A DNA stretch of 39,928 nt from an uncultured Alphaproteobacteria bacterium. Lineage in GTDB: Bacteria > Pseudomonadota > Alphaproteobacteria > UBA7879 > UBA5542. The notes beneath the pieces are model-generated. The model saw only the letters and a program-made list of their open reading frames with translations, was not told where the DNA came from and made no database searches. The stretch's first letter is position 1, and every line of letters starts with the position of its first letter. The DNA lies in assembly GCA_903912365.1 (NCBI GenBank), contig CAIWGV010000045.1:85886-125813 (forward strand), in the 5' to 3' direction. The position numbers and the translations under genes are program-made. Positions 1 to 26,119 of this stretch are shown here, piece by piece.

Positions 1-3000
1 AAAGTAAGTTTGGAAGAAATTTTTGATCTCTGCCATGGCGTCCAAGAAGTTTTTAACCTGTATCCAACTCTTTTTATATTTTCCAGAGGCCATGATGGAA
101 TTCTGAATTTCTGGTGTCATCACCTCTAATTCTTGGAATAACTCCTCCATAGCAGTACCAGAAACCTCTGCATCCAGCTGGGCTGCTTTGGGAATCTGGA
201 CTGTGAAGGGAAACAAATTGGCCAAATTATTATTAAAAAGAGCTTCAATTTTATTATATTGTTTTGCTGCCCACTCAGCTGTCATCACTTGGCACCGTTG
301 ATTCATGCCCTTAAGCAGCAGGTTTTTACGCCCTAAGAAATAATCACTTGTAGACTCCACGGACGGGGGAACCGTTGTTTGAGCAAGACATGTTTCATAG
401 GTAATATCATTTCCTGTATCCAGCAAAAATTCTTCCAGAACCGCCATGGAACCCGAGGGTTTTGATTGTTTATAATTAATGGATTGCTGTATCAAAGTGT
501 ACCAACGATTGACCAGTTTAATTTGATCCATGGAAAGAGAAAAAATATCTGCCTTCAAAAACTCAATGATAGGAACACTGTATTGGGTAGCGAGGGTTAC
601 AATCTGGGCACTTTGGTTGGCAAAATAACTCTTCATTTCCGCCTTATCCGCCACGTTAAAGCTTCTTAGAACTGCATCTTTTCCTCCCTGCCATTCTCGA
701 AAACGCGGATCGGAGGGTAAATAGTACTCTCCTTGATTAAGGGTGCTGTCCAAGTTTTGCAGTTGTTCATACATCTGATCAAATAAAGCTGTTTTCAAGC
801 GCCCCTGGGTTTTATGAGCCTGATCTTCGTCCAAGTACTTTAGAAGCTTCAGGAAAAGGGGCCCTACTTCTGCAATGTTGTCGATTTGCGACTGCATTGC
901 ATCCTTACTTTGTTGGGTCCATTTTTGAGTCGGCCTCTCATAGAACATTTGTCCTTTTTCTAGAATCACATCGATGTTTCTTTCCAACTGCTCTCGGCCT
1001 GCAACGCGCAATGGATTCTGGATATTGGCAGGATAAGAAGAAAGCTCCTTATCCATAAATGTCTTATAATCTAGAGCGAGAGCAATGGAGTTTCTCACGG
1101 CTTGGGGATCCCAGTGGACAAATTGTCCTTGGGGAATTTTATTGATAAAAGGAGACCCCTCTACCTTTTGCATGAAAGGTTTGGAGAGAAATTCATTTAA
1201 TTTACTTTCTAGATTTAAAAGCCCCGGGGAGGGCTCTAGCCTTTTCGTGAGGGGAGATATGGTTAGGAAGTGCCCTGTCAGAGGAGACCCATAACTTCTC
1301 AAATACGTCGTTGCTTTTTCATATAAAGCTTCCGATGTTTTTGCCAGTTTTTCCTGAATATCATTACTGAAAAGGCTAATGTTTTGGATCTGGCCCATAA
1401 GTTTTTGATATTTAGATCCTGGATCAAAACGAGGATTGGTCATCCAAGAGGCCCCTGACGCTGTAATGAAAGTCATTAAATTCTTGATTTCTGTTAGGCT
1501 ATCTCTCAAATTTTCCAAATCATGAAACCCCTGACCCTCCACCTTACCCAAGGTTTTCTGGAGTTTCTGAGACAAGGAATAATTGTACTTTGGATCCAAG
1601 ATTCTTCTTAAAAAATTATTATAGAGTTGATAAAGCCTTTTTTCTGCAAAGATCCGATAATTCTCTATATAGAAAGGAGGATAATTACCTTCGTTGATAA
1701 GATCTCTTCCTAAGGTCTCATGAGCCCTTAAGAACGAAGGTGCAAACTCGTACCCATAAATATAGTTGATCAACTTAGATAAACCGCCCAAGCTTTTAGT
1801 TTCAGGCAAAGTTTCGTAGATAGAGATTACCGCCTGAAGATCCAGCAGAGCATTTACATATCCCTCCAATAAGAGAAATTCTGACGTTTGAGTCGGATCA
1901 GAAAAGGGAGCATCCAACCTTATGGTGGGCAAAGGATCTTTAATTAAACTGTCCGCTTTTCTTTTTAAAAGATAATGGATGGGCTCTTCTATGCGGGTCT
2001 CGTAAAGAACCAATAATAAATCCTTAAGCCTTTTACTCAATAGACTGATGGAAGAGGGAAGAAGGACCGGCGATGTCAAAGAAGACTCATAAACCCGAAC
2101 AAAAAGAGTCAGAATCGCCTTTGTTCTAAATTCAGCCGCATCCGCCGCCGTAAATTTATTGGGATTTTCTTCCTGTAAATTATTCAGAATATTGATCAAA
2201 GATGGACGAATGTCCTGTACATCTGCGGATAGTCTTCCTTGAATCCAGTAAAGGCCGCAGACCCCCGAAATAACCAACCCCGCAATGCCCAATCGAATCC
2301 AGTTAATGGTCCGGCTGGCCGATACAAGGAATTTATTAAGAGGTATGGCGGCCCCAATTTCCATGAAGATTTTTTGTTTAAAAAGATCTTTCAGAAAAGG
2401 ATGGGTCGTCAAATCTTCTCCCCCATCTCCCGTTAGAAAGATACCCCTAAACATAATATCGTTGTCGTACTGGTCTTTTTGAAAGGTTGAGTCCAAATAA
2501 ATGGATACATTTTCTTTCAAATTAGAAAATGCTTGGGGAAAAATCATCAGATCATCTTGGTATTCTTCCACTGGTTTTTGGGCAAAAATCCTCAACGTAG
2601 ATTCAAATAAAGAGGTGTAAATTTTATCAAACCCTTCTTTTACCCAACTATCTTTATAAGCCAAATCTGTAGCATAGGGATTTGACCATCCCACCATCTC
2701 TGAAAGAGCTTCCTCCGGCAATTCTTTGCAAAATCCAGAAAACCCTGCCACCTGATCACATTTTGTCATAAGGAGATAGAGGGGAAGTTTAAACCCTAAA
2801 AATGACCCAACCTTATTGAGTTGGCTTGACAGAAGGGTTGCCTTTTGAATCATTACATCTTTTGACAGCGCTTCAGAACCTGTGAAATAGGTAGCTGGGG
2901 CTGTTAGAACAATTCCATCTATGGGACGATAGGGCCTATACCGCTTAAGGGCCTTTAAAACAGTGTTCCAACTTTCTTCGACTTTTTGGGTGGTGAAGCA

Positions 3001-3498
3001 TCTCTCAGAGATTTCCAAAACAATCCCTTTATCATAAAACCACCATTGCAGAAGGGGATCTTCTGTGGGAACGGAAAAGGCTGGACTCGAAATGGGATTT
3101 GACAGGCCACTGTTTTGCAAAACAGTCTTTTTTCCAGAGAAATCATCCCCTACAACAATAAACCAGGGCAAGCTATAAATATCTTCTGAAACCAGATTGC
3201 TTTTAAGGGCCCCCATGGCTCCCCTGAAAGATGTGTAAATGGGCCCCAAAGGACGAACCCCAAGAACATCCAAAACTCCATAGATATAGAGTTGAATTTT
3301 TTCTAAAAGAGAAGAAGAGCTCTCAATGTCAGAGGGGAAGGCCGTCTGAAGTCTTGCAAAAAAATCTGGGTTTTTGAAACCGATTTTTTCAAGATGCCCT
3401 CTAAGACTAAGCTTTGTTGAATAAGCCACCAACAGAAAAATGAGGGCGTTCAGCGCCAGGATTATGATAATAAAATAAGGAAGGTAGTGAAACAGCAT
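1..3498 (-). CDS. tssM: Type VI secretion inner-membrane protein TssM (IcmF/VasK), 3' end outside window
   Basis: An open frame of 1166 codons runs without a stop from the ATG at 3498 to the left edge, so the C-terminus is missing. TssM is the large inner-membrane component of the type VI secretion membrane complex and spans the periplasm with TssJ and TssL. Visible features are an N-terminal hydrophobic segment (about residues 4-27), a cytoplasmic P-loop-like domain with PWFIVVGDDFSGKKT at about 111-125, a conserved IcmF motif MTKCDQVAGF, and a later membrane segment around WIRLGIAGLVISGVCGLYWI that precedes the long periplasmic region. The Walker A is atypical: Lys stands where Ser/Thr is expected after GK. 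The start codon overlaps the tssL stop in TAATG, which indicates translational coupling. The family assignment is firm because tssL and tssK are adjacent. Confidence 0.93.
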   Translation of the reverse strand, partial: MLFHYLPYFIIIILALNALIFLLVAYSTKLSLRGHLEKIGFKNPDFFARLQTAFPSDIESSSSLLEKIQLYIYGVLDVLGVRPLGPIYTSFRGAMGALKSNLVSEDIYSLPWFIVVGDDFSGKKTVLQNSGLSNPISSPAFSVPTEDPLLQWWFYDKGIVLEISERCFTTQKVEESWNTVLKALKRYRPYRPIDGIVLTAPATYFTGSEALSKDVMIQKATLLSSQLNKVGSFLGFKLPLYLLMTKCDQVAGFSGFCKELPEEALSEMVGWSNPYATDLAYKDSWVKEGFDKIYTSLFESTLRIFAQKPVEEYQDDLMIFPQAFSNLKENVSIYLDSTFQKDQYDNDIMFRGIFLTGDGGEDLTTHPFLKDLFKQKIFMEIGAAIPLNKFLVSASRTINWIRLGIAGLVISGVCGLYWIQGRLSADVQDIRPSLINILNNLQEENPNKFTAADAAEFRTKAILTLFVRVYESSLTSPVLLPSSISLLSKRLKDLLLVLYETRIEEPIHYLLKRKADSLIKDPLPTIRLDAPFSDPTQTSEFLLLEGYVNALLDLQAVISIYETLPETKSLGGLSKLINYIYGYEFAPSFLRAHETLGRDLINEGNYPPFYIENYRIFAEKRLYQLYNNFLRRILDPKYNYSLSQKLQKTLGKVEGQGFHDLENLRDSLTEIKNLMTFITASGASWMTNPRFDPGSKYQKLMGQIQNISLFSNDIQEKLAKTSEALYEKATTYLRSYGSPLTGHFLTISPLTKRLEPSPGLLNLESKLNEFLSKPFMQKVEGSPFINKIPQGQFVHWDPQAVRNSIALALDYKTFMDKELSSYPANIQNPLRVAGREQLERNIDVILEKGQMFYERPTQKWTQQSKDAMQSQIDNIAEVGPLFLKLLKYLDEDQAHKTQGRLKTALFDQMYEQLQNLDSTLNQGEYYLPSDPRFREWQGGKDAVLRSFNVADKAEMKSYFANQSAQIVTLATQYSVPIIEFLKADIFSLSMDQIKLVNRWYTLIQQSINYKQSKPSGSMAVLEEFLLDTGNDITYETCLAQTTVPPSVESTSDYFLGRKNLLLKGMNQRCQVMTAEWAAKQYNKIEALFNNNLANLFPFTVQIPKAAQLDAEVSGTAMEELFQELEVMTPEIQNSIMASGKYKKSWIQVKNFLDAMAEIKNFFQTYF

Positions 3499-4244
3499 TA
3501 TCCCTCCGCTCGAATGAGTCTGTGTATAGCGTCAATCACCGTGTATAAATCTTTCACTTCCACATACCAAAGAATGTAAAAGGCTATAACAAAACCAACC
3601 GCTGTGGTAGCTAAAATATAGTACCATGCCTGTGTGTTAGGCGCCTCAGAAGGAGACCTGGGATCTAACGTAAATGCATAGGCCTGAGGGAAAAATTTTC
3701 TGTACCCCTCCAGGAATTGAGGGGGTTGGTCTTCAATGACTCCATAAAGATTTTTCTTATATTGAGAGAGAATTTTTTGATCCTCCTCTCCCCTAAACTT
3801 TCCTTGAAATCCAAGACCCAGAGACAGAAGGTAAACCATTGCCACATCGGAACTTGTATGATCTCGGGTCTCTAAAAAGGCATTGAGTTTTTTGAAAAAT
3901 TCATCCCCTGCATCTTGAGTGTTATAAAGACGAGATTCCAAAAGATTATCTTCCCAAACTTTTTTGCCCTTCCATTGTAAATTGATAAAGGTTTCATCTG
4001 TTAAAGCAGCCATAACATATTGAGCTTCTTGGTAATATTGGGCCGCTAGGGCCCCTCCTCGAGTTTCCATCTGAGCATACTGGGATTGAAGCAGGGCTTC
4101 CAATCGATTCAAAATCTGTTGGGGGACCGAAGGCACCTCGTCTCCCTTTTCTGCAAGAGCCATAGCTTTAGATACCAGAAGGGCCTCATAAAAATCTTTG
4201 AAATTTTCCACAATTACAGATTTTATGTATTTTTCGTTGTTCAT
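3498..4244 (-). CDS. tssL: Type VI secretion protein TssL (DotU family)
   Basis: This 248-residue protein matches the DotU/TssL family, the inner-membrane partner of TssM that links the membrane complex to the baseplate. The diagnostic stretch is YVMAALTDETFINLQWKG, followed by a Trp/Leu-Glu region, AGDEFFKKL, and the motif LLSLGLGFQGKFRGEE around residues 140-155. A single C-terminal transmembrane segment (about 207-227, YILATTAVGFVIAFYILWYV) anchors it, as expected for this tail-anchored family. There is no C-terminal OmpA/peptidoglycan-binding domain, so this is the short form. It follows tssK by about 27 nt, with a purine-rich ribosome site (GGAAAGAG) ahead of its ATG, and it overlaps the tssM start by one base. 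Confidence 0.95.
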   Translation of the reverse strand: MNNEKYIKSVIVENFKDFYEALLVSKAMALAEKGDEVPSVPQQILNRLEALLQSQYAQMETRGGALAAQYYQEAQYVMAALTDETFINLQWKGKKVWEDNLLESRLYNTQDAGDEFFKKLNAFLETRDHTSSDVAMVYLLSLGLGFQGKFRGEEDQKILSQYKKNLYGVIEDQPPQFLEGYRKFFPQAYAFTLDPRSPSEAPNTQAWYYILATTAVGFVIAFYILWYVEVKDLYTVIDAIHRLIRAEG

Positions 4245-4271
4245 GCCATTCTCTTTCCGTGCATAATAGCA

Positions 4272-5612
4272 CTAGCCCGCTATATATAGAATAACTTCCT
4301 CAGGCCGTGTCTCATTCGTATCAGAGGGATTGAAGATTTGTAGATCTTCCCCACCTTTTATAAAATTTGGATCAATAGAAACTGTTACCAATATCTGCCG
4401 TGTTGTCTCCAGAAGTCCCATAGAAGCCACCTGAGAGACTATTTGTCTGTCTGCCCCCAAAATACGCTTTTCCTTCACTTGAGGAACAACGGATTGAGAG
4501 GCAATGATGGCCCCCATCAACCAACGGCTTGCAATAGGAGGTGTTATGATGGGGCCCAGTTTAATTCCAATAATCAGCTCTTTGGTTGTTAGCCACTCTT
4601 CATTTATGGGGTAAGAGAAAACCCGATCTACCTTATTGAAAGGAAGGGGAATAGCTGGATTCTTTACTTTTGCGACCATATCTTCAATAAAGGCAATGAT
4701 CGGATCAAAAGTCGCCTTTAGATCATTATGATTATAGGCTCCAAAAATAGGGGGAACTTGGCCTTGAGTCAAAGAACAGTAGCTTCCTGCAGAAATGCAA
4801 AGTTCTCGATAGATCTCAAAGGGATGGGATTTTTCTGATAAATAAAGAGCTTCCAGCACCACAATACGGCTCACGATGATGTTATAAATTCCTAAGTAAT
4901 AATTCAAAACAGGGGCCGTCTCTTCTGTTACAAGAGCACTTAGGCGATCAGATAAATAGGCAATATCTCTTCTCAGGTTTTTAATAAGGGCTCCACAGTA
5001 TTGGCTGATGAATCCCCCCGATTGAATAGAGGTGGATGGTGGAATAAAATCAGTTTTTACGAACATATTGTCTTTAAAGGTTACCTTCAAGAGAGGGAAG
5101 CTGGAGTAACGGGGAGTAACATCCTCCTCCCTCAAAAGAACTATCCTTAAGGAAAGTTTTGGCATAACAATGGGTTCATCACCGGTATTCTCATCCATAA
5201 TGGGGGTTGACTCAACGGAATCATACCGAGGCAAGTCTCCTGCGGTGTTAGCCGCATCTGGTTGTAAAGCCACCACTGCCAGATGAATGGTCATAACAGT
5301 GCCATCCAATTCTTTTTTAAGCCCAGAAATATCCAGCTCAACTTTCTTTGGGGAGTTTACTTTTTTATCCACAATGGAACCGTCTGGAAGAATGGCAAGG
5401 ATCTCATTGATGCGGATGATGCCTACAGCGAGGGAGGTCTCATCTAGATCTAGATAGCGGATACCCCAATACCAGGGGCAAGCGACGGTCAAATAACACA
5501 GGCTCGTTTGCTGCAATTCATTGCGCATTTGCTGGTAATGCTGTGGGTAAAGGAGCTGGCCTTCATACCATTGAACTGGATCCAAAACCGTAAAGTTATA
5601 TCGTGATTCCAT
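4272..5612 (-). CDS. tssK: Type VI secretion baseplate protein TssK
   Basis: This 446-residue protein is of normal TssK (VasE/ImpJ) length. TssK is a cytoplasmic trimeric baseplate adaptor that connects the TssL/TssM membrane complex to the TssFGE wedge. Family-like features are the N-terminal VQWYEGQLLYPQHYQQ stretch (about residues 13-28), the following RYLDLDETSLAVGIIRINEI region, and the C-terminal region ending in EEVILYIAG. TssK is specific to type VI systems, so it rules out a type IVB reading of the neighbouring IcmF/DotU pair. A strong purine-rich ribosome site (GGGGGATT) precedes the ATG. It is the first of three genes seen in this operon, with tssL and tssM downstream. Sheath, tube and ATPase genes are not in the window and may lie beyond the left edge or elsewhere. 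Confidence 0.93.
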   Translation of the reverse strand: MESRYNFTVLDPVQWYEGQLLYPQHYQQMRNELQQTSLCYLTVACPWYWGIRYLDLDETSLAVGIIRINEILAILPDGSIVDKKVNSPKKVELDISGLKKELDGTVMTIHLAVVALQPDAANTAGDLPRYDSVESTPIMDENTGDEPIVMPKLSLRIVLLREEDVTPRYSSFPLLKVTFKDNMFVKTDFIPPSTSIQSGGFISQYCGALIKNLRRDIAYLSDRLSALVTEETAPVLNYYLGIYNIIVSRIVVLEALYLSEKSHPFEIYRELCISAGSYCSLTQGQVPPIFGAYNHNDLKATFDPIIAFIEDMVAKVKNPAIPLPFNKVDRVFSYPINEEWLTTKELIIGIKLGPIITPPIASRWLMGAIIASQSVVPQVKEKRILGADRQIVSQVASMGLLETTRQILVTVSIDPNFIKGGEDLQIFNPSDTNETRPEEVILYIAG

Positions 5613-18067: not shown

Positions 18068-18164
18068 ACATCCACACTGTAGGGGGTTCTTGTCACCTAT
18101 ATGAGGAAGCTATTTGAGGATGGCTTTTCATACTGTTAAAATCCCACCGATCTTAACCCATGAC

Positions 18165-18345
18165 ACAAAATGGCAGGTCTCCTGGCTTGCGGATTAAACA
18201 TTTGGAACCAATCTTCCCAGGACATCTATCCCAGTGATTTTAACGGAGAAAATCTCTCCGCGGACACCAAACTCTCCACTTACAGTTGCGGGGGCAGCTG
18301 TGGCTTTTTATCCACATTCCCTAGAACCATTTCGATCGCTGTCAT
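18165..18345 (-). promoter_or_regulatory. Cobalamin (adenosylcobalamin) riboswitch
   Basis: The minus strand between the TPR gene and btuB carries the conserved B12-aptamer core: AATGGTTC then AGGGAAT, GCTGCCCCCGCAACTGTAA (the B12 box, around 18280-18300), CACTGGGA, TGGGAAGATTGG, and the 3' box GCCAGGAGACCTGCC around 18168-18182. The order and spacing match class I cobalamin riboswitches. The usual 5' GGTGCC-like segment is not obvious, so the exact 5' boundary is approximate. It sits about 100 bases upstream of the btuB ATG with no clear terminator between, which suggests control of translation. The 309-base gap between genes here (18068-18376) is explained by this element and the btuB leader. 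Confidence 0.93.
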
Positions 18346-18376
18346 AGTCTCAAATATTTGGATCTTTGGCAAGAGA

Positions 18377-20335: not shown

Positions 20336-22123
20336 TCACCGATGTACCTCCACCGGAAGGGGCCGTGGATCTGTTGTGAATTTTTCATAGAGACGTTTGT
20401 CCCCTGCGTCCGGGGTAGGATCTTCCAGGATGGTGGCCCGCAGAAAAATCACCAACTCCGTCACCACCCGATGCTGATGTTTTGCGGATGTAAAGAAGCT
20501 GAAAAAACTCTCGGACGTACCCGGAAGTCCCGCTGTTCCTGCCTCTGCCCCCTCCACCATAAGTCCCCCTAAAATTGCGATATTTCCGGATTTAATTCTC
20601 AAAATAGAATCGATTTCTCGCACGGCCACCACTGGATAATCGGACCGGATTTTCTTGGAAGGATTGTTCAAGGATTGATTCAAAATCTCCACGGCTGGAT
20701 CTTGCTTCACATCGATGAGTCGGGAGATGGTGGGGCGCAGATTCAGGATAATCTCCTGGGTACTCTCATCGATTGCGGGTTGCACATTCATGACAAACCC
20801 GATGGGAATGCTTTGGGGCGTGCTGGAAGTGGACACTACGGATCCATAATTGGTGGCATCCGCATTCAAAAATTGGCGGTCTCCGGTAACCGTAAAAAAC
20901 ACAAAATTCTCCGCCACTTTCAGCAGGGCCGTTTGATTATTAAGCACCGTGAGACGGGGGCTTGAGAGGGTCCGCACGGTCCCAAAAGCTTCCATAAAAT
21001 TGAGGATCGCGGACAGGGAGCTCCCCTGGACGCCGAGGCTGATAACCTTATTTGTTTCGGGAGTGGTGATGAGGGAAGACGTCCGGGTGGCCAAATCCCC
21101 AAACAAAGCGGAAGCTTCAAAGTCCCCCGTGAATCCGGTTTTCTCTGTACCATAGGCCCCGAGTCCATACCGTCCAATCCGCTGCCAATCAATGCCGCTT
21201 CGGTATTCCTCCTTCAAGGTAACTTCCACAACTTTGGCCTCAATGAGAATTTGGGTGGAGGTTTGTTTTTTCAGACGCTTCAAAAAGAAATCGATATTTT
21301 TGTGTTGTTTTTCGGTGGCATAGACCGATACCAATCCCGCTTGTCGATGGAGGGCAAAGGAGGGTCGCTGTTTTGCCATAACCTTTCGTGTTTCTTCTGT
21401 CTTATGGGGGACCTTTGGATCCTCTGAAGATTCACGACTCAAATGCTTGGACAGAGGAATGGTTTTCTTTTCTTCAATGATCTTTACCTCCCCTTCTTTC
21501 AGGGGTGTATCCCTAGATAAATTCAAAATAGTTTCGATGCTTTTTTCCAGCTCCGCCCAAAAATCAACATCTGTTTCCCCTGAGATACTGCTGGAGGATC
21601 CATTAACATCCGACGATGCCGCTTTTGCAAAAATATTGCTGTTGATAGACACGGAATTTTTTGTTTTGCGAGAGAGATTTAAGAACTGCACATTGTAGGT
21701 TTTTAGATAGGGCAAGTCCCGCTCCACCCGCAACAACCTATTTTCAAAAGTGAACCGGAGATGGGCCATTTCGCAGATGTTTGTAATGACCTCTAAGAAA
21801 GGCCGAGACGTTGCCTGGTAATACAAACTTCCTTCAATATCTTTATCCAGGATCAGATTGATCTTGGCCTGCTTACAAAGCTGAATCAGAACCTCCCGGA
21901 GATCCGCTGAGTCTTCAATATGCAAAGACACCCGCTTTTGCAGCTCTGGCTCGGGCTGTGGATTCTCAAGAATCACCGGCTGGGGAATGGGGGGCTCAGG
22001 GGGAAGCGCGGCCCGTGTTGTGAGAAGGTCGTAAATTTCCTTTTTTGGCAGAGACGTGGGCGCATCCTGCAGGGAGCAATGGCTCACCAGTAAAAACATC
22101 AGACCTGTCACCCATTTCTTCAT
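20336..22123 (-). CDS. Secretin (MshL/PilQ/GspD superfamily), probable lipoprotein
   Basis: This 595-residue outer-membrane secretin begins with a signal sequence MKKWVTGLMFLLVSHCSLQ. The cysteine could be lipidated, although the His before it is atypical. A secretin/TonB short N-terminal domain follows (LREVLIQLCKQAKINLILD). The C-terminal secretin domain shows ILIEAKVVEVTLKEEYRSG, VQPAIDESTQEIILNLRP, and VREIDSILRIKSGNIAILGG then LMVEG, which is closest by eye to MshL-type pilus secretins. It would form the outer-membrane gate for the pilus or pseudopilus made by the following two prepilins. The start has GGAG five bases upstream. No assembly ATPase or platform protein is adjacent, so the rest of the machine must be elsewhere. 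Confidence 0.9.
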   Translation of the reverse strand: MKKWVTGLMFLLVSHCSLQDAPTSLPKKEIYDLLTTRAALPPEPPIPQPVILENPQPEPELQKRVSLHIEDSADLREVLIQLCKQAKINLILDKDIEGSLYYQATSRPFLEVITNICEMAHLRFTFENRLLRVERDLPYLKTYNVQFLNLSRKTKNSVSINSNIFAKAASSDVNGSSSSISGETDVDFWAELEKSIETILNLSRDTPLKEGEVKIIEEKKTIPLSKHLSRESSEDPKVPHKTEETRKVMAKQRPSFALHRQAGLVSVYATEKQHKNIDFFLKRLKKQTSTQILIEAKVVEVTLKEEYRSGIDWQRIGRYGLGAYGTEKTGFTGDFEASALFGDLATRTSSLITTPETNKVISLGVQGSSLSAILNFMEAFGTVRTLSSPRLTVLNNQTALLKVAENFVFFTVTGDRQFLNADATNYGSVVSTSSTPQSIPIGFVMNVQPAIDESTQEIILNLRPTISRLIDVKQDPAVEILNQSLNNPSKKIRSDYPVVAVREIDSILRIKSGNIAILGGLMVEGAEAGTAGLPGTSESFFSFFTSAKHQHRVVTELVIFLRATILEDPTPDAGDKRLYEKFTTDPRPLPVEVHR

Positions 22124-22302: not shown

Positions 22303-25300
22303 ATGCGGGGGTTTATGCGTCGTTTTCTAATTGTTTTTTTTGCCTCAGGAGGGTTTTCTCTTCTGGTTACACCTGGGCAGAGCACCACAGTTGGATATAA
22401 GGACGCCCCCTCAATTCTTTCTTTAAATCCAAATGTAAACAAGAAAACCCGAGACACTCGAGGGAAGCGACTTCTGACACTCCTTAAGGCAAATCGGATC
22501 TCTTGTGAATCCTTAGATAATAAAGGTCATGAGGTTGGGGAGACACCCGACGCTGAGCTTCCTGAAGTTAGGGAGTTTTGCCTGGTAGACGCGCTGAAGA
22601 CAAAACGAGAAACCTGCGAGAATTTAATAACAAATAGAAACTGGGAATACAAACTTCCTGAGGTTAATAAATATTGCTCTGCGCGACTTCACTGGGAACA
22701 GCAGGACAAATCAGGCCATCAATGGGACAAACGAAACTGGAAACGCACCTTCTCTGATGAGCCTGTCAAAAGTGGTCCTACTCCCCATTCCGTCGAGACG
22801 CTCCCTGCGGCACAATTGCCAATAGCTTCTGGAGAGTCTCACTCCCCAATAACTCTTGCTGTTCCCGTTGACGATAACAGAGGACTTGAATCTGATGCCT
22901 CCAGAACACACGTTACCCGCACCGTAACGCGCCGCGTCCCTAGGGATATCCCGTCCCTAGATGGACCTGAAGCTAGAGGGGGCACTCAGCATCCAGAACT
23001 GGCTCAACAAAAGCTGAACAATGCCTATAACAACGTTTTTGCCCATCTGAAGCAGCTTCATACCGCTTGGGAAACTTTGGAACGGGAACAGAAGACCAGC
23101 AATCCTGAAAAACTCCGGCCTTTCGAAGAGCGCTTCATCCGACAGGTGGGGCAATCTCAAAGCTATATAGGGACCCTAGATCGGCAAAACAGTTTCTTAG
23201 GGGAAGAACTGGGGCGTCTTTTCAACACCCCCTCCCCAAAAGCAGACCGCGTTGCCCTGCAAAAATTCCACAGCATGCTGAATGTTGTAGGGAGGCAGAA
23301 TGGGGATCTCCACGCAAAAATCAAAAAGATGCACCAAACGTATGCGGCCCTCACAGGGGCCCTTAAGGGGAAAATAACGCAAGAAGTTGCAGAAGAGATC
23401 TATCAAGAAACCATCCATCCAAAGCCTAATGGAAATGACGGAAATGACCTCCGGGAATTGGAAATACAGATTGCCCTAACTGAAAAAAAAGGACATGACA
23501 TAGGAACACAGTTTGAGCAAATAATTGGTCATACGTGCCCCGGAGACGTCTGCCCCGCTCCCCAACACATTCTCCACCAGGCAAAAGAACTTGAGCAAAA
23601 AATTCAGGGCCTTCGCGCAGAGCTTGCTACCCTGGAAAACCGTGACACTCGGGGGAACATCCCCAGAGTTCAGGCCCTAGAAGCTAAAATAGCAACACTC
23701 GATACAGGTCTGACCAAAACTATTGAGGGACTCAGGGCAGAATTGGGAACGGCTCAGCAAGCATCAGCAACAGCGGACAAAGTGGCTAATAATCTCCTGG
23801 GAGAACAGGAGGCACTCAGAGCCCGGGTAGCTCAGCTAGCTACTACAGAAGCTGCTGCAAAGGCAAGAGTAGCGGAGGTGGAACGACAGGAACAGACCCA
23901 TCAATTAACGGCACGTCAGGCTGAACAGGCAAAGGCGGCTGTTGAGAAGACTTTGCAGGAACAGCGAGCAGAAGCTGCGAAACTTTTGGCTCAAAATACG
24001 GCGTTGGAAGAGAAAATTAAGAGACAAGCTGGAAGGCGAATTCTGAGTGTATTTCAGGCAAATAGGGCCCGAAGAGAGAATGCAGAGATAGCGGATAATT
24101 TGAGAGGGCTGAATAGAGCCAATGAAGCGACAGTGGCAGCTCTGAAACAACAACTGCAAACGTCTGAGCTAGAGAAGACGGAAGCTTTATCTCAAGTTAG
24201 AAAGAGTTTATTGAGTTCTGGTGAAGCAGAGAGAGGAAGGGTCGAAGCCGAACGAAAAGCTACAGAGTTGGAAAAACAGCAGCAGCGTTTGAATGCAACC
24301 CTAGCTGTTCTTCAGCAGAGGGAGAGAGATCTGGGCACAGAAATAGTTAGAGTCCAAGCGACAGCAGACACCAAAACACAGCTCGCAGAAAAGACAGAAA
24401 GACAAAGAAAAGATTTACAAGAAAACCTTCAGAGGACTCAGAATCAGATCCAAGCACTGAGCTCTAAAAATGATCAACTGGGAATTGAGATGAAGCGTTC
24501 GGTCGCTGCCCATCGAATTGTGGGAGCGCTCCTCCAAAGTGTAGCTACAAAAAAAATAAAGGAAGCCCAGGAAGAAAATCAAAGGGTTCAAGCTGAGCTG
24601 GCAATCCTTCGAGCCGAGAGTGAACGATCACAAGCTGCTTTGAAAACGGACCTCGACGCATCTAAGGCTTCTCTTGTGCAAGCTCAAAAAGAGAGGGAAG
24701 ATCATCAAAGGCAATTGAGCTTTACAAGAAATTCTACTCAGGAAACCGAACAACAAACGGCCCGAGAAAGGCTGCGACTAGACGCCCAAATTAATGGATT
24801 AGCCATCGACCAAAAACAAGCTGAGGCCAGAGCGGCAGCGGCTGAAGCAAGAGCGGCAGCGGCTGAAGCAAGAGCAGCAGCTGCGCCGGCTCATTCGGCA
24901 GAGAAGGCAGCGTTGGAAGCTTCAGCAGCAGCAGCTCTAGCCAAAAAAGATCAAGAAATTCTCGAACTAAAAGGAAGAAAATCCCAGCTCTTGTGGCAAA
25001 AATTTATTAGTGCTGTCATGGAGAAAAACCGGTTAGAAAAAATTGGAAGTGCCGCTGGCACCGTGTCTCTAGGCAACGACTTTGGATTTTCACAAAGCTT
25101 AGCTGACCAAACAAAGGCAATTCTCCAAGCTATCGCGGATCAAAAAGCAGCATTTGAAACACAGGCAGCACAGCTAGGAGAACTACAGGAAGCTTTAACA
25201 GAACAAGATAGCACAATAGAAAAACTCTCGGCAGAGCAAGAGCGTCTTAGAGCTCTCGCAAAACGAGCCGAAACTTTGCAACGAGAAATTACACCACAAC

Positions 25301-25797
25301 AAACCCCTACCCTAACGGATACGAGGAGCATAGAAGAACGGGTAAGGGAATTGCAAAAAACCCTAAAGGAAATTACGAGAGAAAAAGATAATGCACTAAA
25401 AACCGCCACGCAGGCACGCGGACTCATAAAGAGTACGGGCTTACGACTAACATTACAACAAACAGAAATGGAAACTATGGAAGCTAATAGAGAAAAATTA
25501 GAGGCAACCCTTAGAGATCAAGAAAGACAGCTTGAGATTCAATCGACAGAATTGAGAGAATTGGGAGAGGCCGCGAGAAGTGATTGGGACGCCGATGAGG
25601 CTATCCAAGCATTAAGAGACAAGACTAATAGAATTCTCACCCAGTCTAAAGCAGAGGGAAAAACAATTGGGGAACAGAGAAAACAGCTTGCCAAATTACT
25701 TCGGGAAAACGAACAACAAAAACAGATGATTGCAGAAGCTCTTCTGGCAAACCAGCAATTCTCGACCGAAAACGAAGATTTAAAAAGAAAGATATAG
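22303..25797 (+). CDS. Very large exported coiled-coil protein, C-terminus lost by frame change
   Basis: This 1164-residue protein begins with a signal peptide (MRRFLIVFFASGGFSLLVTPG from the in-frame ATG at 22315; neither start has a strong ribosome site). Residues about 60-130 hold two related Cys-containing units, CESLDN...LPEVREFC and CENLIT...LPEVNKYC, which could form disulfides. From about residue 225 to the end it is almost continuous Glu/Gln/Ala/Lys-rich heptad sequence, including three RAAAAEA-type repeats near 845. The stop at 25795 is followed in the +1 frame by 70-odd further residues of the same composition, so the original protein was probably about 1235 residues. I do not recognise a family. 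Exported long coiled coils in intracellular bacteria are often surface or host-interaction proteins, but that is inference. It is monocistronic with its own candidate promoter. Confidence 0.8.
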   Translation: MRGFMRRFLIVFFASGGFSLLVTPGQSTTVGYKDAPSILSLNPNVNKKTRDTRGKRLLTLLKANRISCESLDNKGHEVGETPDAELPEVREFCLVDALKTKRETCENLITNRNWEYKLPEVNKYCSARLHWEQQDKSGHQWDKRNWKRTFSDEPVKSGPTPHSVETLPAAQLPIASGESHSPITLAVPVDDNRGLESDASRTHVTRTVTRRVPRDIPSLDGPEARGGTQHPELAQQKLNNAYNNVFAHLKQLHTAWETLEREQKTSNPEKLRPFEERFIRQVGQSQSYIGTLDRQNSFLGEELGRLFNTPSPKADRVALQKFHSMLNVVGRQNGDLHAKIKKMHQTYAALTGALKGKITQEVAEEIYQETIHPKPNGNDGNDLRELEIQIALTEKKGHDIGTQFEQIIGHTCPGDVCPAPQHILHQAKELEQKIQGLRAELATLENRDTRGNIPRVQALEAKIATLDTGLTKTIEGLRAELGTAQQASATADKVANNLLGEQEALRARVAQLATTEAAAKARVAEVERQEQTHQLTARQAEQAKAAVEKTLQEQRAEAAKLLAQNTALEEKIKRQAGRRILSVFQANRARRENAEIADNLRGLNRANEATVAALKQQLQTSELEKTEALSQVRKSLLSSGEAERGRVEAERKATELEKQQQRLNATLAVLQQRERDLGTEIVRVQATADTKTQLAEKTERQRKDLQENLQRTQNQIQALSSKNDQLGIEMKRSVAAHRIVGALLQSVATKKIKEAQEENQRVQAELAILRAESERSQAALKTDLDASKASLVQAQKEREDHQRQLSFTRNSTQETEQQTARERLRLDAQINGLAIDQKQAEARAAAAEARAAAAEARAAAAPAHSAEKAALEASAAAALAKKDQEILELKGRKSQLLWQKFISAVMEKNRLEKIGSAAGTVSLGNDFGFSQSLADQTKAILQAIADQKAAFETQAAQLGELQEALTEQDSTIEKLSAEQERLRALAKRAETLQREITPQQTPTLTDTRSIEERVRELQKTLKEITREKDNALKTATQARGLIKSTGLRLTLQQTEMETMEANREKLEATLRDQERQLEIQSTELRELGEAARSDWDADEAIQALRDKTNRILTQSKAEGKTIGEQRKQLAKLLRENEQQKQMIAEALLANQQFSTENEDLKRKI
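24829..24891 (+). repeat. 21-base in-frame tandem repeat in the coiled-coil gene
   Basis: Two perfect 21-base copies (24829-24849 and 24850-24870) and a third diverged copy to 24891 encode RAAAAEA units. The perfect DNA identity implies recent duplication and possible copy-number variation. Confidence 0.85.
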
Positions 25798-26014
25798 AGA
25801 GCAAAAAGACCTCTTAAGGAGAATAGATTTAGAAGTAAAAGCGAAACGAGAAGAGGCCAAAAGGCGATCTATACCGTCTGCAGAGACAATTGCTCAAGAG
25901 GAAGAGCTAAGGGAAAGATCTCTCAAAGTAGGAAGAGATCATCAACAATTATTATTAGAAAGGGAGAAGCGCAAAGAACGATCAACAGAACAACCAATAA
26001 ATCCCGCCCCCTAA
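25784..26014 (+). pseudogene. C-terminal continuation of the coiled-coil protein in the +1 frame
   Basis: Starting just before the stop at 25795, the +1 frame is open to a TAA at 26012 and encodes EQKDLLRRIDLEVKAKREEA followed by more Glu/Arg/Lys-rich sequence ending TEQPINPAP. The composition and heptad character match the upstream 1164 residues, and no start codon with a ribosome site precedes it. Removing one A from the AAAAA run at 25782-25786 would join the frames as DLKERYREQKDLL. It is either a real frameshift, a sequencing or assembly indel in a homopolymer, or, less likely, a +1 recoding site. Confidence 0.75.
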
Positions 26015-26119
26015 TAACACTCCCACCAAGATCCACCCTACAATGGCCATGAGGCGCTTTTGGGTGGAAGGGGCATTTTTATTAGCGGGCTTTAAAATTC
26101 TTCTCTCATCAGGTTCCAT
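25982..26119 (-). CDS. Small single-span membrane protein (45 residues)
   Basis: A short frame on the minus strand starts at an ATG preceded by AAAAAGGACCT, a good ribosome site. The N-terminal half is charged (MEPDERRILKPANKNAPSTQ) and the C-terminal half is one transmembrane helix, MAIVGWILVGVLLGGGIYWLF, ending in Cys. No family was recognised. Its last 33 bases overlap, in antisense, the C-terminal extension of the coiled-coil gene. Start signal, charge asymmetry (KR before the helix) and helix length all support a real protein. It and the adjoining upstream sequence to 26320 explain the gap between the coiled-coil and PotF-like genes. Confidence 0.72.
   Translation of the reverse strand: MEPDERRILKPANKNAPSTQKRLMAIVGWILVGVLLGGGIYWLFC

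Follow-up and report, generated by a model that had tools for sequence, protein, structure and literature searches.

A coding-like tail lies out of frame behind the stop codon of an orphan coiled-coil gene in an uncultured alphaproteobacterium

The window, i.e. the whole stretch of 39,928 nucleotides that was analysed, comes from the genome of an uncultured alphaproteobacterium (1.17 Mb in 47 contigs) and contains a long gene for a coiled-coil-like protein, downstream of which potF-like, DUF3035, pgi and mutL genes are found. The features surrounding this gene and its 3' end, in window positions, are the following.

20336-22123, minus strand: secretin gene, upstream of the coiled-coil gene
22303-25797, plus strand: coiled-coil-like ORF of 1164 amino acids, closed by a TAG at 25795-25797
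25781-25783, plus strand: TAA closing the +1 frame upstream of the tail, the upstream limit for any frame change
25782-25786, plus strand: run of five A (A5), one of the 24 A-runs of at least five bases in the gene
25784-26014, plus strand: +1-frame tail of 76 codons and a TAA, coding-like, with two predicted helices
25982-26119, minus strand: convergent ORF of 45 amino acids from the ORF list, with one likely membrane span (judged by eye)

The N-terminus of the 1164-residue protein is hydrophobic (approximately residues 8-23) and, by eye, similar to a signal peptide; the protein is probably exported. The cysteine-containing region (residues 68-125), in which the pattern CE[S/N]L ... LPEV..[F/Y]C is present twice, is followed by a long Glu/Arg/Lys/Gln-rich, coiled-coil-like part, and beyond residue 440 the protein has no cysteines and four prolines. 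No Pfam family was found above its cut-off and NCBIfam gave no matches. Pfam DUF3584 (PF12128) was rejected as a candidate, as it scored 16.6 bits against a gathering cut-off of 31, in a single stretch (residues 234-490). A search of PDB sequences with the first 240 residues returned nothing at E values up to 1, and the AlphaFold2 model of the same residues, made without an alignment, was unusable (mean pLDDT 47.6). The gene also contains the sole tandem repeat of the window (Tandem Repeats Finder, default score), in which a 21-base unit occurs three times at 24820-24881 and is read in frame as repeated Ala, Glu and Arg residues; the length of this unit preserves the frame.

Judging by sequence searches, the coiled-coil gene is an orphan among the genomes of its family and order that were examined, namely one other genome of the family and four more of the order. 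Relatives of the whole protein were found in none of 56 other genomes (where first-look candidates were many, only 12 were scored), and the tail likewise had none in 56 others. The cysteine region, compared with six genomes of the order at E values up to 10, matched its own genome only. The first 233 residues, searched against 385 genomes of the class, matched their own genome and one more, with nothing convincing in the 384 others. The additional match, in genome G064 (E 4.9e-4, 20.3 bits, 74 residues, a stop inside), was rejected and is taken as chance because 385 genomes were searched. Pattern searches, which reach close relatives only, gave 22 matches but no relatives among GTDB contigs and two matches but no relatives among viral contigs, and tblastn against phages and plasmids (E 1e-5) yielded no usable homologue of the coiled-coil protein. 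The long orphan protein itself, with no relative detected in the genomes searched, is the more unusual part of the locus.

G001, the relative from the same family, has its secretin gene beside a DNA polymerase I-like gene and its potF after a TssA-like gene (both judged by eye). Neither of these sites showed a counterpart of the coiled-coil gene, and none was found elsewhere in G001 (84% complete); therefore, the gene sits where gene order differs. The segment 22303-31751, which comprises the coiled-coil gene, potF, DUF3035, pgi, mutL and an ORF of 203 amino acids, lies between the secretin and DNA polymerase I genes, which are neighbours in G001.

A sequence-only reading of this locus had proposed that a frame change next to the A5 run separates the gene, stopped at 25795, from a +1 frame of more than 70 open codons. 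This geometry was borne out. The stop is the TAG at 25795-25797, and the +1 frame is open over 76 codons (25784-26011), followed by TAA TAA at 26012-26017. The main and +1 open stretches share only 14 bases, and therefore any frame change must sit within this short interval, which adjoins the A5 run. The idea that the tail frame is a small gene of its own with a usual start was rejected, since the list of ORFs of at least 25 amino acids with an ATG, GTG or TTG start contains none in this frame. The terminator scan gave one weak match, on the minus strand at 25917-25940, which is no excess over the shuffle mean of 1.3.

The coding character of the tail was evaluated against dinucleotide-preserving shuffles, with codon z scores computed without stop codons. 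A stretch of 65 open codons, as found at 25787-25981, arose by chance in 71 of 5000 and 37 of 3000 shuffles. With a codon model built from the gene itself, this stretch has a z score of 2.43 (a value reached by 20 of 3000 shuffles), and its codon likelihood is reached by one of the 37 shuffles that are open; extended to 26011, the tail has a z score of 2.85 (10 of 3000). It lies inside the range of true-frame windows of the gene (n=21, mean 3.39, minimum 0.38) and above all shifted-frame windows (n=42, maximum 0.73). The coding signal thus continues past the TAG in another frame, yet it is not significant with the codon model from 25 neighbouring genes (z 1.06, 444 of 3000 shuffles), under which the last 65 true codons of the gene have a z score of 3.11. 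Under the neighbours' model the +2 frame even scores above the tail (z 1.69, 124 of 3000), its seven stops being left out of the score. The first half of the tail alone has z scores of 1.12 with the gene's own model and 0.18 with that of the neighbours.

In sliding windows of 22 codons, scored with the gene's own model and with stops included, frame 0 is best at starts 25303-25723, the +2 frame at 25753, the +1 frame in six windows starting at 25783-25933, and frame 0 again at 25963. Against a background of local base composition, the summed log-odds of the tail are approximately +4.4, its first 31 codons being negative, and those of the approximately 100 true codons before it are +29.9. Codon usage of the tail is, therefore, moderate evidence and not decisive.

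The zero frame past the TAG is likewise open, for 84 codons, so openness by itself is weak evidence. For the zero-frame peptide the acidic-minus-basic count is -17, a value that 65-residue windows of the gene itself do not reach (-7 to 8), and the peptide contains two cysteines; its share of helix-forming residues (0.52) is low, yet inside the range of the gene's windows (minimum 0.45), and its codon score is under the shuffle mean in both models (z -0.54 and -1.69). Readthrough of the TAG in this frame was rejected as an explanation, since no window of the gene comes near its product in basic character, two cysteines would be added, and the codon scores are below the shuffle mean. The +1 tail has an acidic-minus-basic count of -4 and a helix-former share of 0.77, and it is by own-model codon usage and charge balance that it is told from the zero frame. 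The Glu/Arg/Lys/Gln-rich composition, originally offered as the sign that the tail matches the gene, is weak when taken alone, because purine-rich DNA yields charged residues in any frame.

The contig's own flanks are a better control than codon usage. Among the 14 three-prime flanks with at least 150 bases free of ORFs of at least 100 amino acids, an open run of at least 60 codons occurs in one, that of the coiled-coil gene, the longest run in the other 13 being 48 codons. This flank also has less T (0.16) and more purine (0.69) than the other 13 (T 0.24-0.38, purine 0.40-0.60).

AlphaFold2, run on the tail alone as a single sequence, predicted helices at residues 2-28 and 33-66 with a mean pLDDT of 83.7. 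The second helix stops at residue 66, which corresponds to 25981, right before the overlap with the convergent ORF begins; this 45-residue ORF (25982-26119, minus strand) runs antisense to the final 33 bases of that frame, stop included. Weak matches to the 45-residue ORF were found in three of the five other genomes of the order (E 4.4e-4, 0.0028 and 0.011), in open frames of 43-50 amino acids, and they sit at other places in both genomes whose surroundings were inspected. A 3.5-residue hydrophobic periodicity is not significant in the tail (2579 of 5000 shuffles reach it), and that of the final 65 main-frame codons is reached by 107 of 5000 shuffles. Of the earlier suggestion that the tail continues the coiled coil, the helical character is thus retained as a prediction and the heptad-like pattern is not.

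With moderate confidence, the tail can be regarded as former C-terminal coding sequence that now lies out of frame. The explanation that we slightly favour, with confidence just past an even balance, is that a recent truncating indel, i.e. a true mutation and a step of decay, displaced it. The coiled-coil gene starting at 22303 would formerly have run to approximately 26014, its product being a coiled-coil-type protein of about 1240 residues. A small indel of recent date, located between 25784 and 25797, would then have shifted approximately 75 final codons into another frame, and the present protein would end at residue 1164, with the helical tail missing. The displacement is most likely recent, because no further stop has arisen in the tail, and the truncated protein may still fold, as over 90% of its length is preserved. 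Frameshifted gene ends, as seen in early pseudogenisation, are common in bacterial genomes. The coiled-coil gene resembles such cases in its single break, in a tail that is otherwise open and in a tail composition that is still coding-like, and it differs from the usual case in that the loss is confined to roughly the final 6% of the protein.

A less likely explanation, doubtful on present evidence and still the strongest competitor of the truncating indel, is an assembly or basecalling error in the consensus, the real gene being continuous and the base count near the A run being wrong. The trace of a true indel is identical to that of an error in the consensus, and the frame geometry and the coding-like tail fit both; an error would also leave the ORF of 1164 codons intact but for one break, and the tail stop-free. 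On the other hand, the 97 ORFs of at least 100 amino acids left by a simple overlap filter total 94% of the 125.8-kb contig (overlaps counted twice), no internal stops interrupt the matches to TssM, secretin and PotF in this genome, and longer runs within the gene, including two of eight A, keep the frame open. As the contig gives no sign of frequent indels, the balance tilts slightly towards a true mutation in the sequenced lineage. In the annotation, the C-terminus of the orphan protein should be held provisional.

It is improbable that the TAG at 25795 is the natural end of the gene and that the +1 frame is open only because the DNA is rich in purines and poor in T. Such an end would agree with the simultaneous openness of two frames, with a significance of the tail that varies with the codon model, with its lack of periodicity and with the adjoining convergent ORF, which marks a close boundary. 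Nevertheless, the purine-rich, T-poor DNA past the stop is peculiar to the coiled-coil gene among the 14 long flanks of the contig, the +1 frame outscores the zero frame in both codon models, and the helices of the tail are predicted with confidence.

An expressed frame change at the A5 run, in which phase variation, or else slippage during transcription or translation, would give short and long forms of the protein, appears very unlikely. Citrobacter rodentium tssM1 has the same arrangement of an A run just before the stop and a coding tail in another frame; there, slippage on a run of 11 A, 28 nt ahead of the stop, brings the reading frame back (PMC4256274). The coiled-coil gene shares with that gene the A run near the stop and the tail in another frame, and it differs in having five A instead of 11 and in belonging to no family for which the long form is known to be required. 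It is also not a tssM gene, the stop-free tssM match being located elsewhere on the contig. In a transcription-error study of E. coli and Buchnera, insertions in runs climb exponentially as the run lengthens in both organisms, and deletions in runs do the same in Buchnera, which speaks against a run as short as A5; the study saw no case of an error restoring a reading frame (PMC5574713). Deletions do not depend on run length alone, however, since the same study places most of them outside homopolymer runs (PMC5574713).

The run itself is ordinary. There are 116 runs of exactly five A in the window, and the one at the stop is among 24 A-runs of at least five bases in the gene, two of which are A8 with the frame open throughout. 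A phase-variable gene would be expected to carry a hypermutable simple repeat at the switch, and programmed transcriptional slippage a long A or T run; the site offers A5 only, against the 11 bases of C. rodentium tssM1. Of the three causes put forward in the sequence-only reading, phase variation is therefore unsupported, and decay and a sequence error both fit. That slippage near the A5 run produces two lengths of a secreted coiled-coil protein, a fraction of it with an extra helical tail of 75 residues, has a very low probability.

Several other gene groups were noted on the contig. Type VI secretion genes occupy positions 1-5612 of the window on the minus strand and include genes for DotU/TssL and VasE/TssK as well as a TssM match. 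This match spans contig positions 85469-89356, entering from before the window start, and a TssM query from G001 matches all six genomes of the order, G001 included. A cobalamin riboswitch (18155-18346, minus strand) is located upstream of a gene for a TonB-dependent receptor, and genes for a BtuC-like permease and an ATPase are found further along the same strand.
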